Positions 2,925 through 61,840 of a stretch of DNA of 64,000 nucleotides are shown here, one piece after another. Both the position numbers and the translations under genes were made by a program. Position 1 is the first letter of the stretch, and the number at the start of each line of letters is the position of its first letter. The DNA lies in NCBI RefSeq assembly GCF_010672525.1, contig NZ_JAAHGH010000008.1, forward strand, positions 247,715 through 311,714. Reading direction: 5' to 3'. Under the pieces are notes generated by a model that saw only the letters and a program-made list of their open reading frames with translations, was not told where the DNA came from and ran no database searches. The DNA comes from Okeania sp. SIO2B3 (lineage in GTDB: Bacteria; Cyanobacteriota; Cyanobacteriia; Cyanobacteriales; Microcoleaceae).

Positions 2925-3310
2925 AGCCTAAAACTTGGGCAATCAACTGGATGGGGACAATTTCTAACTATTTTAATTGTCAAAGCTGTTAGCGCAGCTC
3001 CGACCCAGAAGGCAAATGCTGGAGGTGAAGACTATAGTTGTGAATCCTCAAAAACAGAGCCAAAATTGTTCAAATTGTGGTGAGGGGGTCCCCAAAAAAT
3101 TACCAGAAAGAACTCATTATTGTGCCAATTGCTGTGTGATTATTGACCGCTATTTGTTTGCGGAGCATGACAAACGGAAATGCAGCAATAAATATTAAAA
3201 ATAGGGCGGTAGGGCATTCCGTTTTTAAAGCACGCGCTTGTCCGACGGGGTACCGGGACTGAGAAACGAGAAGCCCACGCCATACCTTAAGGTTGGTGTG
3301 GGAGTATGTC
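2925..3310 (+). pseudogene. tnpB (IS200/IS605-type) C-terminal relic with right-end hairpin
   Basis: The frame opening at 2977 encodes a recognisable TnpB zinc finger, SQNCSNCGEGVPKKLPERTHYCANCCVIIDR, but the RuvC-III acidic residue region is degenerate and the N-terminal two thirds are gone. A second frame after the stop (from about 3187) continues as IKNRAVGHSVFKARALVRRG and EKREAHAIP, the usual tail of this TnpB subgroup. The locus ends in a hairpin, CCCACGCCA/TGGTGTGGG (3274-3302), followed by GAGTATGTC. That resembles the omega-RNA 3' end/right end of such elements. It cannot encode a functional nuclease. Confidence 0.75.
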
Positions 3311-22661: not shown

Positions 22662-23108
22662 TTAATGTCCCTTGAATTTAAGTTTTATAGCACCCTTTCT
22701 AGCAGCTTTTACCGAATAATTAATAATTAAATAATTCAGGTTTAAAGCCTCCCCTGTAAAGGGAAAAATTTCTTTTTTTCTTAAACGTCAATCCTCTCCC
22801 TCAAAGGGAGAGGTAATTATTAATTGTTAATTTTTAATTGTTAATTGCTGAAACCACTTCCAAAAAGACTTTCTTTTCCTTCTCCATCAACTTCAACAGA
22901 AAGTTCTATCTCATCTAGTTGAATTTCAGTTTTGTAGCTGTCGCTTGAATTTAAGTTTGATAGCACCTTTTCCACCAGCTTTTCCACCGCTTCCGAAAAG
23001 ACTAACTTTTCCTTCTCCATTAACTTCAACAGAAAGTTCTATCTCATCTAGTTGAATTTCAGTCTGAGTTTGTTTTTCTGCTCTACTCAACAAACGCTCA
23101 AAAACATC
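22662..23108 (-). pseudogene. Duplicated and disrupted Pepco/trypco-like (peptidase-co-occurring) domain gene
   Basis: Reading the minus strand gives three pieces of one small domain. Copy 1 (23108-22926): DVFERLLSRAEKQTQ, EIQLDEIELSVEVNGEGK, GGKAGGKGAIKLKFKRQLQN, stop; it has no ATG because the tandem array at 23.1 kb abuts it. Copy 2 (about 22925-22838): TEIQLDEIELSVEVDGEGK then ESLFGSGFSN, stop. After an inserted two-hairpin repeat its tail resumes as VKAARKGAIKLKFKGH, stop (22662-22664), 4 nt before the metacaspase ATG. The family assignment (a domain co-occurring with trypsin/caspase peptidases in bacterial conflict systems) is from memory of the motif. Confidence 0.6.
22735..22840 (+). 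repeat. Two-hairpin dispersed repeat inserted in the Pepco-like gene
   Basis: GTTTAAAGCCTCCCCTGTAA at the left, CTCTCCCTCAAAGGGAGAGG (22794-22813) at the right, then TAATTATTAATTGTTAA. It is the same composite seen near 48.4, 52.9, 53.1, 53.3, 53.5, 61.1 and 62.1 kb. Here it separates the two halves of a coding domain. Confidence 0.75.
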
Positions 23109-24218
23109 TTAGTTATGAGATTTTAGAGTCACCGAGAAAATTGAGCTTTGCCTGTGGTGGAAAATTTCCCTAACTACAACGTCTTAGTTATCAGATTTTA
23201 GAGGAACTGAGAAAATTGAGCTTTGCCTGTGGTGGAAAATTTCTATAACTAATAACTACAACGTCTTAGTTATCAGATTTTAGAGTCACCGAGAAAATTG
23301 AGCTTTGCCTGTGGTGGAAAATTTCCCTAACTACAACGTCTTAGTTATCAGATTTTAGAGGAACTGAAAATATTGAGCTTTCTGTGTGATTGAAAATTTC
23401 TATAACTGATAACTACAACGTCTTAGTTATTAGATTTTAAAGTCACCGAGAAAATTGAGCTTTGCCTGTGGTGGAAAATTTCTATAACTAATAACTACAA
23501 CGTCTTAGTTATCAGATTTTAGAGTCACCGAGAAAATTGAGCTTTGCCTGTGGTGGAAAATTTCCCTAACTACAACGTCTTAGTTATCAGATTTTAGAGG
23601 AACTGAAAATATTGAGCTTTCTGTGTGATTGGAAATTTCTATAACTAATAACTACAACGTCTTAGTTATTAGATTGTAGAGACACCGAGAATGAGGAACT
23701 TTCTGAGTCGTTGAAAATTTCTCTAACTACAACGTCTTAGTTATTAGATTGTAGAGGAACTCAGAATTAAGAGCTTTGCCTGTGGTGAAAAATTTCCCTA
23801 ACTGCAACGTCTTAGTTATCAGATTTTAGAGGAACTGAGAATATTGAGCTTTGCCTGTGGTGGAAAATTTCTATAACTAATAACTACAACGTCTTAGTTA
23901 TCAGATTTTAGAGTCACCGAGAAAATTGAGCTTTGCCTGTGGTGGGAAATTTCCCTAACTACAACGTCTTAGTTATCAGATTTTAGAGGAACTGAGAATA
24001 TTGAGCTTTCTGTGTGATTGAAAATTTCTATAACTAATAACTACAACGTCTTAGTTATTAGATTTTAGAGTCACCGAGAATTTTTGAGCTTTCTTTGAGT
24101 TGAAAATTTCTATAACTAATAACTACAACGTCTTAGTTATTAGATTTTAAAGTCACCGAGAATATTGAGCTTTGCCTGTGGTGGAAAATTTCTCTAACTA
24201 CAACGTCTTAGTTATCGA
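23106..24218. repeat. Tandem array of about 15 units alternating between 75 and 82 bp
   Basis: The marker GTCTTAGTTAT recurs at about 23181, 23263, 23338, 23420, 23502, 23577, 23659, 23734, 23809, 23891, 23967, 24048, 24130 and 24204, with a degenerate first copy at 23107. Each unit then has AGATTTTAGAG, (T)CACCGAG or GAACTGA, TTGAGCTTT, GCCTGTGGTGG or TCTGTGTGATTG, and AAAATTTC. The 7-bp difference is an extra TAACTAA before ACTACAACG. Both strands are full of stops and unit length is not constant modulo 3, so it is non-coding. No unique spacers, so it is not CRISPR. Confidence 0.92.
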
Positions 24219-52766: not shown

Positions 52767-52800
52767 ATATAGTAATTTCATTTGAGTTGCGTAAAAAACA

Positions 52801-53569
52801 TGGTCGCTTTTAGGCAACAGGCAACAGGCAACAGGCAACAGTTCAACAATGAATAATGAATAATGAATAATGAATAATTACCTCTCCTTGAAAGAAGAGG
52901 ATTGACAAAGAGATGAAAATTTTTCTTGATTATCCCCTTAAAAGGGGAGGCGCATACCCACAATTTTTTCGGTAAGAAGGTTGGCCGAACTTTTTACTGT
53001 TAGTTATTTACTAACTCTTGTTTGACATATCATTTGAAAACCCTATATAAATCTGTTCGACAATTAATAATTAATAATTACCTCTCCTTTAAAAGAAGAG
53101 AATTAACTCAAAGGAAAATTTTTCTTGATTATCCCCTTAAAATGGGAGGCTTTAAACCACAATTTTTAGGTTAAATTTTCACTAATGGTCGCTTTTAGGC
53201 AACAGGCAACAGGCAACAGGCAACAGTTCAACAATGAATAATGAATAATGAATAATGAATAATTACCTCTCCTTGAAAGAAGAGGATTGACAAAGAGATG
53301 AAAATTTTTCTTGATTATCCCCTTAAAAGGGGAGGCGCATACCCACAATTTTTTCGGCAAGAAGGTTGGCCGATTTTTTTACTGTTAGTTATTTACTAAC
53401 TATTGTTTGAGATATCATTTGAAAACCCTATATAAATCTGTTCGACAATTAATAATTAATAATTACCTCTCCTTTAAAAGAAGAGAATTAACTCAAAGGA
53501 AATTTTTTCTTTATTATCCCCTTAAAATGGGAGCCTTTAAACCACAGTTTTTAGGCTAAATTTTCACTA
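52801..53569. repeat. Tandem duplication of a 385-bp repeat block
   Basis: TGGTCGCTTTTAGGCAACAG begins at 52801 and again at 53186, and both copies run to TAAATTTTCACTA with a few differences (GGTAAGAAGG versus GGCAAGAAGG, AACTCTTG versus AACTATTG). Each block holds AGGCAACAGGCAACAGGCAA, TGAATAATGAATAATGAATA and two inverted copies of the two-hairpin repeat. The 61-64-codon frames inside it are repeat translation, not genes. Confidence 0.92.
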
Positions 53570-58536: not shown

Positions 58537-60036
58537 TCAGTTTTTCCTTCTTCCCTCTTCCTTCTTCCTTCTTCCCTCTTCCAAATAATTAATAAATCGT
58601 CGAGGAATATCTACCCTACTTCCCCAATGAATATGAAAATAGGAAGCATGAAGTTGATAAAAATTCCAACCTTCAACAGTTGCTTTGTTCCGATTTTTAT
58701 CCTCATCAATTCGCCACATTTTATATAGATGTCTTGCGGGAGCTTCAGTTAATTCAGAACGATGAAATTCATGTCCATAAACTTGTGTATTTGCTGCTAA
58801 TAAAGGAGTATCTATATTAGTAATTGCTTGCCGATATCCTAACTTTAAATTTTTACCCATTACTGCCGTAGTTGGTAAAATTCCTACCATCTCCCAAGAC
58901 TTGCTATTAAAGTCAATAATTGCCTGAGATAAATACATCAACCCACCACATTCAGCATAAGTTGGCATTCCAGAAATAATTGCTGTCTGAATAGCTTTTC
59001 TCATTAAAATATTTTCGCTTAACTGTTGGGCAAAAACTTCTGGAAATCCACCACCAAAATATAAACCTTCCACTCCCGCAGGTAAATTGTCATCCTTTAG
59101 GGGACTCCAAAATACTATTTTTGCTCCTAACTCTTCCAGAATATCTAAGTTGTCTTGGTAATAGAAATTAAATGCGCGATCGCGAGCTACTCCTATCAAA
59201 AATTGCGACTTTTTTTTCTCAACATTCTTGACATTTGATTGTGAAAAATGTATTCTGTTATTAGGGGGAACTTGGCTATATGAAAAGTGCTGAGACCCCT
59301 CATTCTGAATTTTTAAAAGTGGTAGTAATTTCTCCCAATCAAAACAAGTTTTTGCCATATCGGTTAAGTCATTAATTAAATTATCTAAATCAGGCATTTC
59401 ATCGGTAGGAAGTAAACCCAAATGTCGGTCAGGAATAGTAATATTTTGATGTCGTCGCAGTACCCCAAGTACAGGTAAATTTATAAATTTAAGGGAATTT
59501 TGAAGTAACTGTAAATGGCGATCGCTCCCGACCCGGTTGAGTATCAAACCAGCAAAATTAATATTAGGGTCAAAAGAAATTAAACCATGAGCGATCGCTG
59601 CCACAGAACCTGATAAACGACTACAGTCAAGCACCAATAATACAGGTACGTTCAGCAACCGAGAAATATGAGCAGTAGAAGCAAAATCAGGAAAACACCT
59701 ACCACTTTCATCTTTTACCCCCCTTTGTAAGGCAGGCGAGGGGGGATCAAAACTCACTCCATCAAACAAACCCATCACCCCTTCAACCAAGGCAAAATCA
59801 ACATCTTGAATATTTTGTGCAAAACATTGCTGCACATAAACCTCGGAAGTCAACACCGGGTCTAAATTCCGACAAGACTTACCCGTGACATACTGATGAA
59901 ACATCGGGTCAATATAATCAGGTCCCACCTTAAATGATTGCACCTGCAAATTTTGCCACTTTGAATAAGAAAGTAAAGCCAACGTAACAGTAGTTTTGCC
60001 AACCCCACTACGCTCTCCCGCAACTATTAAACTCAA
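58537..60036 (-). CDS. cobB: Cobyrinate a,c-diamide synthase, with repeat-derived insert and tail
   Basis: This 499-aa CobB/CbiA amidates cobyrinic acid in B12 synthesis. The N-terminal P-loop GERSGVGKTTVTLALL (7-22), FKVGPDYIDPMFH, LVEGVMGLFDGV and, after an insert, DFASTAHISRLLNVPVLLVLD. The C-terminal glutaminase has GLYFGGGFPEVFAQQL and the nucleophile Cys in TYAECGGLMYLS (about residue 360). Residues about 95-112 (DPPSPALQRGVKDESGRC) are encoded by a dispersed GC-rich repeat, and the last about 15 residues (EEGRRKKEEGRRKN) by a CTTCTTCCCTCTTCC microsatellite. Activity is probably kept, because both lie outside catalytic motifs (inference). Confidence 0.9.
   Translation of the reverse strand: MSLIVAGERSGVGKTTVTLALLSYSKWQNLQVQSFKVGPDYIDPMFHQYVTGKSCRNLDPVLTSEVYVQQCFAQNIQDVDFALVEGVMGLFDGVSFDPPSPALQRGVKDESGRCFPDFASTAHISRLLNVPVLLVLDCSRLSGSVAAIAHGLISFDPNINFAGLILNRVGSDRHLQLLQNSLKFINLPVLGVLRRHQNITIPDRHLGLLPTDEMPDLDNLINDLTDMAKTCFDWEKLLPLLKIQNEGSQHFSYSQVPPNNRIHFSQSNVKNVEKKKSQFLIGVARDRAFNFYYQDNLDILEELGAKIVFWSPLKDDNLPAGVEGLYFGGGFPEVFAQQLSENILMRKAIQTAIISGMPTYAECGGLMYLSQAIIDFNSKSWEMVGILPTTAVMGKNLKLGYRQAITNIDTPLLAANTQVYGHEFHRSELTEAPARHLYKMWRIDEDKNRNKATVEGWNFYQLHASYFHIHWGSRVDIPRRFINYLEEGRRKKEEGRRKN
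59716..59757. repeat. Dispersed repeat inserted in frame in cobB
   Basis: TTTTACCCCCCTTTGTAAGG and GGCGAGGGGGGATCAAAA form an imperfect hairpin (CCCCCC/GGGGGG) typical of intergenic repeats. On the minus strand it codes PPSPALQRGVK inside the N-terminal domain and keeps the frame. Confidence 0.7.
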
Positions 60037-60124
60037 TATTCCCCCCGTCTTTTTAACTAGGTATCAGCTTTTAGCATTTCCGTACCGGAATGCTCCTTCA
60101 ATAATTAATAATTAATAATTAATA
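60037..60124. repeat. TAATAATTAATAATTAATAA tract before the satellite element
   Basis: A short spacer with a TTAATAA microsatellite that provided the target site of the element at 60134. Confidence 0.7.
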
Positions 60125-61122
60125 ATTAATAATGGCTTTGTTGCATGAAAGTATATAGCTGCCGCACTTGCTCCGCATATGTACTTGATAATGCACGGAA
60201 ACTGCTGTAACTATTGGACAATAGATCGATAGAAGATCAATGTTTGACATAAAAAGGCTGAAACTTTTACCTGTAAAGGCTTTGATGTTTAATCACCAGA
60301 GCAATAACTATTGGACAATAGATCAATAGAACATCAATAATCGCGAAAAGAGCCTACGCTTTCTGTGCACCGCAATAACTATTAAACATATGTACTTGAT
60401 AAGGCGCGGAAACTGCTGTAACTATTGGACAATAGATAAATAGAAGCTCAATGTTTGACATAAAAAGGCTGAAACTTTTACCTGTAAATGCTTTGAGTCT
60501 TGAACGCAATAGCAATAACTATTGGGCAATAGATCGAGCAAACATCAATAATCGTGAAACAGAGCCTACGCTTTCTGAGCACCGCAATAACTATTAAACA
60601 TATGTACTTGATAACGCACGGAAACTGCTGTAACTATTGGACAATAGATAGATAGAAGATCAATGTTTGACATAAAAAGGCTGAAGTCTTTACCTGTAAA
60701 TGCTTTGAGCTTCGACCGCCAGAGCAATAACTATTGTACAATAGATTTATCAAACATCAATAATCGTGAAACAGAGCCTACGCTTTCTGTGCACCGCAAT
60801 AACTATTAAACATATGTACTTGATAAGGCGCGGAAACTGCTGTAACTATTGGACAATAGATCGATAGAAGCTCAATGTTTGACATAAAAAGGCTGAAACT
60901 TTTACCTGTAAATGCTTTGAGTTTTGAACGCAATAGCAATAACTATTGGGCAATAGATCGATCAAACATCAATAATCGTGAAACAGAGCCTACGCTTTCT
61001 CAGCACAGCAATAACTATTGGACAATAGTATCGATAGAACATCAATAATCGCCAAACAGAGCGATATAGCTGCGGAATGGATGTTAAGAACGCTACTTTC
61101 ATGCAACAAAGCCATTAATAAT
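60125..61122. mobile_element. 980-bp non-autonomous element: IS903-like ends, 9-bp target duplication, internal satellite
   Basis: The perfect 20-bp terminal inverted repeat is GGCTTTGTTGCATGAAAGTA (60134-60153, and inverted at 61094-61113). ATTAATAAT flanks both sides (60125-60133 and 61114-61122), a 9-bp target duplication although in a repetitive tract. GGCTTTGTTG and a 9-bp duplication are features of the IS903 group of IS5-family elements. There is no transposase ORF; the interior is the satellite listed below. Subterminal ATATAGCTGC segments also pair inversely (60153-60163 and about 61063-61073). Confidence 0.88.
60176..61060. repeat. 212-bp satellite, four units, inside the element
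   Basis: CATATGTACTTGATAA begins units at 60176, 60387, 60599 and 60811 (spacings 211, 212, 212). Each unit carries GGAAACTGCTGTAACTATTG, TTTGACATAAAAAGGCTGAA, ACCTGTAAA and GAGCCTACGCTTTCTG. The motif CTATTG-G(A/G/T)-CAATAG-like palindrome followed by AT(C)GAT appears twice per unit and once more in the right arm, about nine in all. The last unit is partial. Stops occur in all frames; non-coding. Confidence 0.9.
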
Positions 61123-61325
61123 TAATAATTACCTCTCCTTGAAAACGGAATTGATTGACTAATCATGAAAATTTTTTCTCTCTTGGTCTCATGGATATGG
61201 CGAGGAGACCCGTTCTTGCAGACCCGCTCCGAATGGCGCCATCTCACCCTTCGGGAAGCCCCGAAGATCGACCGCTTGTTTCTCCACGGCGAGTGAGAGG
61301 CTTTAAACCTTAATTTTTCGGTAAA
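61123..61325 (-). repeat. Two-hairpin repeat with a GC-rich interior insert
   Basis: ATTACCTCTCCTTGAAAAC at the left and GTGAGAGGCTTTAAACCTTA at the right are the outer parts of the dispersed two-hairpin repeat. Between them lie about 120 bp of unusually GC-rich DNA with GGATATGGCGAGGAGACCCG, CGGGAAGCCCCGAAGATCGACCGC and CCACGGCGAGTG. Confidence 0.7.
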
Positions 61326-61396
61326 GGAGAGCCTCAAAAAAATGATCCTACTGAGTGCCGACCGCTGACAGCTTCTTTAACTCAAAAAAAATGAAA

Positions 61397-61840
61397 TCAG
61401 GAAGCACTTTCCTCTTCATAAATTTCATGCTCTCGTTGAATAAAAACTTCTGCCAACGCCTGATAAGCTTCTGTCCAAGCAGATATCACTTCTGGCGTAG
61501 CTACCTCTCCCAAAACATCCTGCATAGCTTGCAACATACATTCTCCCACCACTGGATATTGTTCTGGTAGTACATGAGTTTGCACATGGCGGTGAGCAAT
61601 TTTTTCAACCATTGATTTTAGACCAGTCAAATTATCAATATGAGCAGCATAACTATAAACTGCAGTAGCTAACTTTGCAGGTTGAGATCCATCAGCTTGA
61701 GCAGACATATCAAACTGAGATTTGATTTCAGGATGATTTTCAAACATTATTTCATACATCCGAGTAGTAATTTGCTTTCCCTGTTTTTTCAGTACTGGTG
61801 CGGTGGATTTGACAATATCGATTGTTTGTTGACTAACCAT
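61397..61840 (-). CDS. Single-domain globin (flavohaemoglobin-type, Vgb-like)
   Basis: This 147-aa globin begins MVSQQTIDIVKSTAPVLKKQGKQITTRMYEIMF with Tyr at B10 (TRMYE). It has the CD-region FDMSAQADGSQPAKLATAVYSYAAHID, the proximal His in VEKIAHRHVQTHVLPEQYPVVGECML, and a C-terminal helix AWTEAYQALAEVFIQREHEIYEEE. The FAD/NAD reductase domain of flavohaemoglobin is absent. Binding of O2 or NO is expected; role (NO detoxification or O2 supply) not shown. Confidence 0.9.
   Translation of the reverse strand: MVSQQTIDIVKSTAPVLKKQGKQITTRMYEIMFENHPEIKSQFDMSAQADGSQPAKLATAVYSYAAHIDNLTGLKSMVEKIAHRHVQTHVLPEQYPVVGECMLQAMQDVLGEVATPEVISAWTEAYQALAEVFIQREHEIYEEESAS

Follow-up and report, generated by a model that had tools for sequence, protein, structure and literature searches.

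The 980-bp non-coding element at positions 60134–61113 of the window (the whole 64-kb stretch of DNA that was analysed, from contig NZ_JAAHGH010000008.1 of Okeania sp. SIO2B3, assembly GCF_010672525.1, a 10.0-Mb genome in 249 contigs) is probably a MITE whose internal minisatellite is made of operator-like sites for a multicopy HTH protein family of the host, with docking or titration of these proteins as a possible outcome. The element is bounded by a perfect 20-bp match between GGCTTTGTTGCATGAAAGTA on the left and its reverse complement on the right, and identical 9-mers (ATTAATAAT) are located on both flanks (Table 1). As the 9-mers are inside an (AATAATT)n run, the sole local support for a 9-bp duplication is the phase of that repeat; unambiguous 9-bp duplications occur in sister copies, such as GTATTTATT and AATTTTTGC. 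Tandem Repeats Finder resolves the interior into 4.0 copies of a 212-bp period, in which the exact palindrome CTATTGNNCAATAG is found nine times. The sequence-only reading of this DNA had described IS903-like 20-bp ends, a 9-bp duplication, four 212-bp units, no transposase and about nine palindromes, and all of these were seen at this place, the exact CTATTG-nn-CAATAG count being nine. No ORF of at least 60 aa starts and ends inside the element, and Rfam returned no match at E ≤ 1 for the element together with its flanks (59500–61800). The neighbours are a CobB/CobQ-like ORF on one side and a globin ORF on the other, and a function based on these genes was set aside. A CRISPR array was likewise rejected, since the spacers are not unique but alike within each array.

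Table 1. Coordinates of the repeat features in the window
Positions	Strand	Feature
23103–24216		Second window satellite, units of 75 or 82 bp, repeats AACTACAACGTCTTAGTT
60125–60133		Left copy of the 9-bp target duplication ATTAATAAT, in heptamer run
60134–60153	+	Left terminal inverted repeat; identical to the right end of the decayed parent IS
60154–60210	+	Leader, resembles sister-element leaders (..CGGAAACTGCTGTAA ahead of first palindrome)
60176–61019	+	Tandem array, period 212 bp, 4.0 copies
60211–60224		Palindrome 1, CTATTGGACAATAG, operator type O1
60243–60311	+	Spacer resembling the end of a second dispersed repeat (MITE-B); like spacers in later units
60308–60321		Palindrome 2
60422–60435		Palindrome 3
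60519–60532		Palindrome 4, centre GG
60634–60647		Palindrome 5
60731–60744		Palindrome 6, centre TA
60846–60859		Palindrome 7
60943–60956		Palindrome 8, centre GG
61015–61028		Palindrome 9
61029–61093	+	Tail, resembles sister-element tails (CGATATAGCTGCGGAATGGATGTTAAGAACGC)
61094–61113	-	Right terminal inverted repeat
61114–61122		Right copy of the 9-bp duplication

Several other repeats were observed in and around the window. MITE-B, noted at 60243–60311 and at loci L058–L066, is dispersed in abundance and has ends like TAGGGTTTGCTGA and TCAGCAAGCCCTA; its end part resembles spacers of the window element. The stretch adjoining the element (61114–61325) belongs to a dispersed repeat matched dozens of times in the genus. 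At positions 1–825 lies a tandem repeat of the GGACCTGCCGGA type with units of 9, 18 and 72 bp, which by eye may be collagen-like, and positions 52800–53569 hold a 385-bp tandem duplication (97% matching) with heptamer runs inside.

The window element belongs to a large family in its own genome. The pattern AACTATTGNNCAATAG, in which a single palindrome may score on both strands, has 204 forward and 177 reverse matches genome-wide compared with 0 for the reversed-pattern control, and the 18-bp end (up to two mismatches) has 70 matches compared with 1; given these control scores, neither the palindromes nor the ends are due to chance. There are 110 stretches similar to the window element at E ≤ 0.001. 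Pairing of ends (at most 4 mismatches in 18 bp) in the fetched loci delimited 25 elements, dispersed across many contigs, of which 20 bear palindromes, 2 to 15 each when counted at up to two mismatches, thereby supplying the further copies and unit counts by which the sequence-only reading could be checked. Among these 20, the 9-bp duplication is perfect in 8, carries one mismatch in 7 and is lacking in 5. The window-type end, which is the right-end type of the parent, stands at both sides in 16 of them, and the variant GGCTTTGTTGCACAAAAG occupies one side in 4. Three delimited elements of 271 bp (L036, L044 and L045) hold just two palindromes, and three short relatives (L112, L118 and L125) have similar ends and a duplication and no palindrome.

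A decayed parent IS of 1076 bp is present in contig C101. It contains a 159-aa partial DDE_Tnp_1 ORF, its right end is GGCTTTGTTGCATGAAAGTA and its left end resembles the variant GGCTTTGTTGCACAAAAG; no palindrome inside, no matching duplication and neither leader nor tail were seen in this copy. Each of the other five own-genome matches to the C101 protein is interrupted or shorter, which leaves no intact parent among them, and the IS5-family transposase gene with the same ends that had been anticipated was seen here as a decayed copy. In the one parent copy read, the satellite does not lie outside the ends, an arrangement that the sequence-only reading had named as contrary to its proposal; the palindrome does occur in another mobile element and in arrays without ends (see below). 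The proposal of a non-autonomous IS5/IS903-like element with its own satellite is borne out by the shared right end and similar left end of the decayed IS and by the palindromes lying inside the ends of 20 copies. Judged by these sequence comparisons, the window element is almost certainly a MITE of the IS903-like group of the IS5 family.

Similar sequence is found in all five species of the genus compared, own species included (57–177 matches each). When named genomes were scanned for an end together with the palindrome, own-genome records possibly being left out, 60 stretches were found, solely from Okeania, Hydrocoleum sp. CS-953 and one Microcoleaceae MAG. At the window locus, both flanks are present in three of four species (G001, G002 and G004), separated by about 113 to 180 bases that do not contain the element. 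The dispersed repeat adjoining the element is missing there too, so these are not clean empty sites. In the fourth (G003), the left flank alone was followed. The family appears to be absent at the orthologous place in these relatives, and its movement by an enzyme of the parent is predicted.

The palindrome-bearing elements follow this plan: an end, a leader, a run of units each consisting of TAACTATTGGACAATAG and a spacer, a tail and an end. Spacers are alike within one element and unlike between elements, with usual periods of 58 to 100 bp. An orthologous insertion with flanks 95–99% identical has 12 palindromes in the own genome versus 13 in G003, partly at other spacing, and a second orthologous copy has two palindromes in both genomes. 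For conservation, 17 own-genome arrays were entered and 16 are reported, one (L135) having too few units; in-phase sites were accepted at up to five mismatches, and the two sites so accepted (both in L047) are outside the compared units. In pairwise comparison within these 16 arrays, the palindrome arms differ at 27/4428 positions, the two central bases at 85/738 (11.5%), the 8 bases on either side of the palindrome at 447/5854 and the remaining spacer at 3040/17520 (17.4%). A single array (C112:104 kb), for which no ends were recognised, accounts for all 27 arm differences. In the remaining 15 arrays the count is 0; 14 of these have one or both ends recognised, and L052 (950–1300) has neither. 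Because the arms are fixed, the centre is free and compensatory changes are absent, these patterns point to recognition of the dyad as sequence rather than to an RNA stem. As a separate observation, the array at C112:104168–104950 (in L413) has a 70-bp period and no mobile ends, and its last two units keep the spacer with the palindrome replaced by TTATTGCGGATAGAGCAATAGT, which resembles a site upstream of the HTH paralog L401.

The HTH family was found because two isolated palindrome matches, one in G157 and one in G010 of another family, lie directly upstream of homologous small ORFs. The encoded proteins are about 150 aa long. Their N-terminus weakly resembles HTH_17 or excisionases, and in 5 of 6 proteins the C-terminal domain matches phrog_8676, a PHROGs group of unknown function. 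The best HTH_17 (PF12728) score among nine proteins was 25.6 bits and did not reach the cut-off of 27; NCBIfam gave one excisionase match below its cut-off, PADLOC gave one weak match, and no relative was found in the PDB for the one protein tried. Comparison with phages gave three weak matches and that with plasmids none. Of ten ORFs adjoining HTH genes, seven are mutually unlike or matchless and three are IS605 OrfB-like.

In the own genome, 22 places encode members or fragments of the family, two of which are genes of the L402 clade (the O1 clade), and many copies are found in related genera. In the own family, 61 genomes were compared: the HTH family is present in each of the 13 that have at least three palindrome matches, and 5 of the other 48 have one HTH match each. 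Genomes of other families, f14 among them, have many HTH copies without the O1 palindrome. In the palindrome-rich genome G369, the two best HTH matches belong to the sister and third groups; no first-clade gene was obtained from this fragmented assembly, and the sister-group dyad keeps the TTG/CAA arms.

The dyad before the HTH genes corresponds closely to the array palindrome. Upstream of L402, AACTATTGTCCAATAGTT starts 31 nt before the ATG and is the MITE palindrome on the other strand, central bases included; L403, also in the own genome, has the O1 dyad with one change. A survey of HTH clades took in 95 loci, of which 89 were readable and 84 remained after removal of duplicates (84 non-redundant genes from about 33 genomes); C-terminal fragments, L404 (which has a stop) and L488 were left out. 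In the L402 clade (34 genes from the own genus and the sister genera g5 and g10), a TTG/CAA dyad is located about 30 nt before the start in 34/34 readable genes. Eight of these are the exact palindrome and 26 have one arm base changed, the right arm being CAACAG in 22 and CAAGAG in 4, so that the array sites are more perfect than most gene-side dyads. The dyad is also present in 4/4 genes of the sister group, with one or two changes and overlapping the start codon, and an ACTATAG-nn-CTAnAGT dyad stands close before the start in 4/4 genes of the third group; for L470, the script chose another stretch and the ACTATAG-type dyad was read by eye. A dyad at a fixed place upstream of its cognate gene is thus a property of the O1 clade and not of several other clades; several clades from other families showed no clear AACTA-TAGTT dyad in the 84-gene survey, and L488, a further first-clade copy, lacks both the upstream region and the dyad.

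When upstream regions were scored against the MITE palindrome, 13/16 was reached in 9/46 HTH regions compared with 0/361 control starts; the HTH genes are related, and neither this count nor the 34/34 represents independent events. A dyad score blind to sequence discriminated poorly, with at least 7/8 reached at 18/46 HTH starts and 75/361 controls. HTH copies that are 78–94% identical begin to resemble one another from the dyad or slightly ahead of it (–29 to –35), and in the closest G285 copies the similarity extends up to –243. The O1 palindrome (TAACTATTGTCCAATAGTTA) is quite likely a recognition site of the HTH family.

The surroundings of the HTH genes showed further regularities. In G285 (L477–L482), an HTH gene and its dyad occur as dispersed copies 92.6–94.7% identical to L477, with similarity stopping some 590 nt past the start codon in 4 of 5 copies. 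This suggests a mobile or duplicating gene cassette, around which inverted ends were looked for and not recognised. Many first-clade genes have a similar non-coding stretch of about 110 nt (CACCAAAAAATATTTATTCGCTC...CTGACAATAACTTCAGCAGGCTTTGTGCTG) on their 3' side (for example L461, L462, L486 and L489), and a different 3' region is common to L449, L452–L455 and L457.

Sites of a second and a third type were also observed. In an 864-kb sample (two 400-kb contig stretches and the window), there are 52 exact dyads of the form CTAnnn-2-n'n'n'TAG. TTG arms account for 40 and TAA arms for 9, every other triplet staying below 3; when eleven other outer sequences were tried, the highest count was 32, for ACTA (itself containing CTA), and none of the remaining ten exceeded 8. 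The TAA form, O3 (CTATAACGTTATAG), is the perfect version of a dyad abutting the start codon of L390 and L392–L394, in which the right half of O3 is kept and the left half is one to three bases off. O3 forms arrays at C195:130591–131058 (with ends like those of the 89-bp element described below), at C112:107 kb and in C20, and it lies at the centre of an element of the 89-bp type in G358. In the family genomes, O3 is present in 12/13 HTH-carrying genomes (1 to 80 sites, three of the 12 having one) versus 0/7 HTH-less genomes. The O3 site differs at 0/210 positions in the C195 array versus 68/921 elsewhere; in the C112 array the figures are 6/140 versus 96/1140, which gives no clear protection.

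The second window satellite (Table 1) carries AACTAAGACGTTGTAGTT on the reverse strand, 13 times exactly and once with one change, and the reverse complement of its repeated motif is one base from a dyad upstream of the HTH paralog L390 on the same contig. No mobile ends were recognised around this satellite. Its 18-bp site differs at 12/1404 positions (0.85%) compared with 808/4593 (17.6%) in the rest of the unit, and is conserved though its dyad is imperfect. The pattern AACTA-N8-TAGTT has 22 matches in the 864 kb (13 in this satellite, 7 at the first operator, 1 third-group-like and 1 other), and 40 control pentamers gave a median of 3 and a maximum of 8. Other dyads without a known HTH link are enriched in the genome as well (CCCCTCC with 58 copies, GCGAATG with 33), and therefore enrichment alone is not special to the HTH sites. 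A site predicted for genus g26, CTATATCGATATAG, was weakly borne out: one of three genomes has it, at just two places separated by 225 bp within a duplicated block.

The O1 palindrome is not confined to the window-type elements. None of the 40 exact CTATTGnnCAATAG sites in the 864-kb sample is solitary: 22 are in two elements of the window-element family (9 of them in the window element itself), 9 are in one array of 70-bp period without ends, and the others are in an unrelated inverted-repeat element of 89 bp (ends AGGACTTACGC), present in nine copies, of which one has a single recognised end. In the 89-bp element the O1 dyad forms the centre, and differing dyads (O1, O3 and O2-like) occupy this same central position. 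Among the loci read from the first 100 places listed for contigs C1 to C39, the same kinds of site recur, together with an array without recognised ends (C19) and a site in an ORF (C17). Across the order, 37 of 388 genomes contain AACTATTGNNCAATAG one or more times, with large numbers just in the own genus (5/5) and the sister genera g5 and g10; as the reversed control is found in 12 genomes with one match each, lone matches elsewhere may be due to chance. A scan of viral contigs for the palindrome gave 106 stretches, and among the 80 listed, 75 have one match and 5 have one site scored on both strands.

These observations suggest a model in which the window-type MITE would be moved in trans by a transposase recognising the ends of the parent IS. 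Its interior would be a minisatellite whose conserved part is the dyad TAACTATTG-nn-CAATAG, and this dyad may serve as the operator-like site of the host's own small excisionase-like HTH proteins, whose dimers would bind the dyads and repress their own genes through them. The arrays, whose sites outnumber gene-side dyads (over 200 exact sites versus two clade genes), may dock or titrate these proteins, and array length would change by duplication between palindromes after insertion. That titration or docking is the main consequence is proposed tentatively. The elements may keep the sites for shielding from silencing, for help in transposition or for a gain from derepression. A protein-binding array had been suggested from the sequence alone; comparative evidence now stands behind it in the conservation of the arms and the dyads before HTH genes, and binding itself is predicted. 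For iterons, the other likeness named there, nothing observed gave support; the delimited copies are scattered over many contigs.

The simplest competing account takes the array as a passive minisatellite of a selfish MITE, in which palindromes drive slippage or unequal crossing-over and the arms remain identical as nuclei of pairing or duplication, with no protein partner. Spacers that repeat from palindrome to palindrome, the 271-bp elements with only two palindromes, the 12 versus 13 palindromes of the orthologous array in two species and the precedent of a minisatellite MITE (BrickBuilt) would all fit this account. We nevertheless consider it improbable: the centre is an equal partner in pairing and yet varies by 11.5% while the arms are invariant, the same or nearly the same dyad stands upstream of HTH genes and in unrelated elements, and the 18-bp site of the second satellite is equally conserved despite its imperfect dyad. 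An RNA function, with the palindromes as hairpins in transcripts or 5' leaders, draws on the strong fold of the 89-bp element (–40.9 kcal/mol, z –7.9) and on a hairpin that the L402 gene-side dyad can form (–5.7 kcal/mol), but the minimum-energy fold of the window-type sequence tried leaves the palindrome arms unpaired with each other, compensatory changes are absent with arms invariant in 15/16 arrays, and the dyad abuts or overlaps the start codon in some HTH subgroups. This makes an RNA function the least probable of the readings considered.

The opposite direction of causation would make the HTH proteins silencers of the host, evolved for binding to mobile elements and diversifying in an arms race; the gene-side dyads would be feedback sites or captures from elements. 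The 22 HTH places in the own genome and the many copies in related genera are in line with such a role, as are the differences in dyad between HTH clades and the different dyads at one central position of the 89-bp element. By comparison, sites are also present in arrays and satellites without recognised mobile ends, the dyad start in the listed genes has no 89-bp-element end closer than 50 bases except at L451 (35 bases), and purely harmful binding would be expected to lose sites rather than keep them; we regard this direction as somewhat unlikely. The array might alternatively be a docking platform that helps assembly of the transposition complex, as IHF-like proteins do. The first window palindrome starts 77 bp from the end, and elements with either of two kinds of ends carry palindromes; both observations would suit a transposition host factor. 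However, the parent copy read lacks palindromes, the short relatives with similar ends and a duplication do so as well, and arrays exist without recognised ends, which leaves this role very unlikely.

Against these alternatives, we conclude that the window-type elements and the satellites are mobile and satellite-borne arrays of putative operators, from which we infer binding, docking and titration. A wider reading, somewhat less likely than not, is a genome-wide two-part system: a diversifying, autoregulated HTH family, together with matching operator satellites in unrelated mobile elements and non-mobile arrays, each conserving chiefly its operator. The arrays would then set the level of free HTH protein, give the nucleoid its organisation or be the trace of a silencer–element arms race. 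If the preferred operator-array reading is true, repeats usually dismissed as selfish or structural in large cyanobacterial genomes would be binding-site arrays for a dispersed protein family, and a host operator would have been copied by mobile elements over 200 times in one genome. It would also provide a directly testable protein–site pair, a case of natural operator titration and a model of co-evolution between regulators and mobile DNA in bacteria.

Our comparison with known systems places the window element beside four kinds of repeat. The IS903 group of the IS5 family, which we take to have the end GGCTTTGTTG- and a 9-bp duplication as in the window element, is presumably represented in the own genome by the IS of about 1.1 kb with such ends; the window element differs in having no transposase, and 16/20 copies differ in having the right-end type of the parent on both sides. 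REP/BIME arrays and the small dispersed repeats of cyanobacteria comprise many short intergenic palindromes, some of them in arrays, whereas here the palindrome matches the dyad of HTH genes and sits in IS-type MITEs. In the open-access literature, with few subscription papers, we found no link between MITE or satellite arrays and operators of a multicopy HTH family, and no description of such repeats in Okeania or Trichodesmium.

A minisatellite in a bacterial MITE (PMC4596501) and a site for a host factor in a MITE (PMC10969869) are each already known, as passages of these papers record. The statement in the sequence-only reading that no described element has this plan was accordingly too strong, given that BrickBuilt of Porphyromonas gingivalis, in passages of its description, is a non-coding, intergenic MITE with an internal minisatellite, present in 19 copies in one strain (PMC4596501). 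BrickBuilt shares with the window element the inverted-repeat ends, the leader, an internal minisatellite of variable copy number and the tail; by comparison, it has 23-bp units without spacers, and its host and ends are different (PMC4596501). The word stem 'palindrom' is absent from the main text of that paper, and its passages draw no link between the repeat and the operator of a regulator (PMC4596501). The Correia element, in passages of its description, resembles the window element as a MITE carrying a site for a host DNA-binding protein, but the site is that of IHF and is associated with neither a tandem array of sites nor a multicopy HTH family (PMC10969869).
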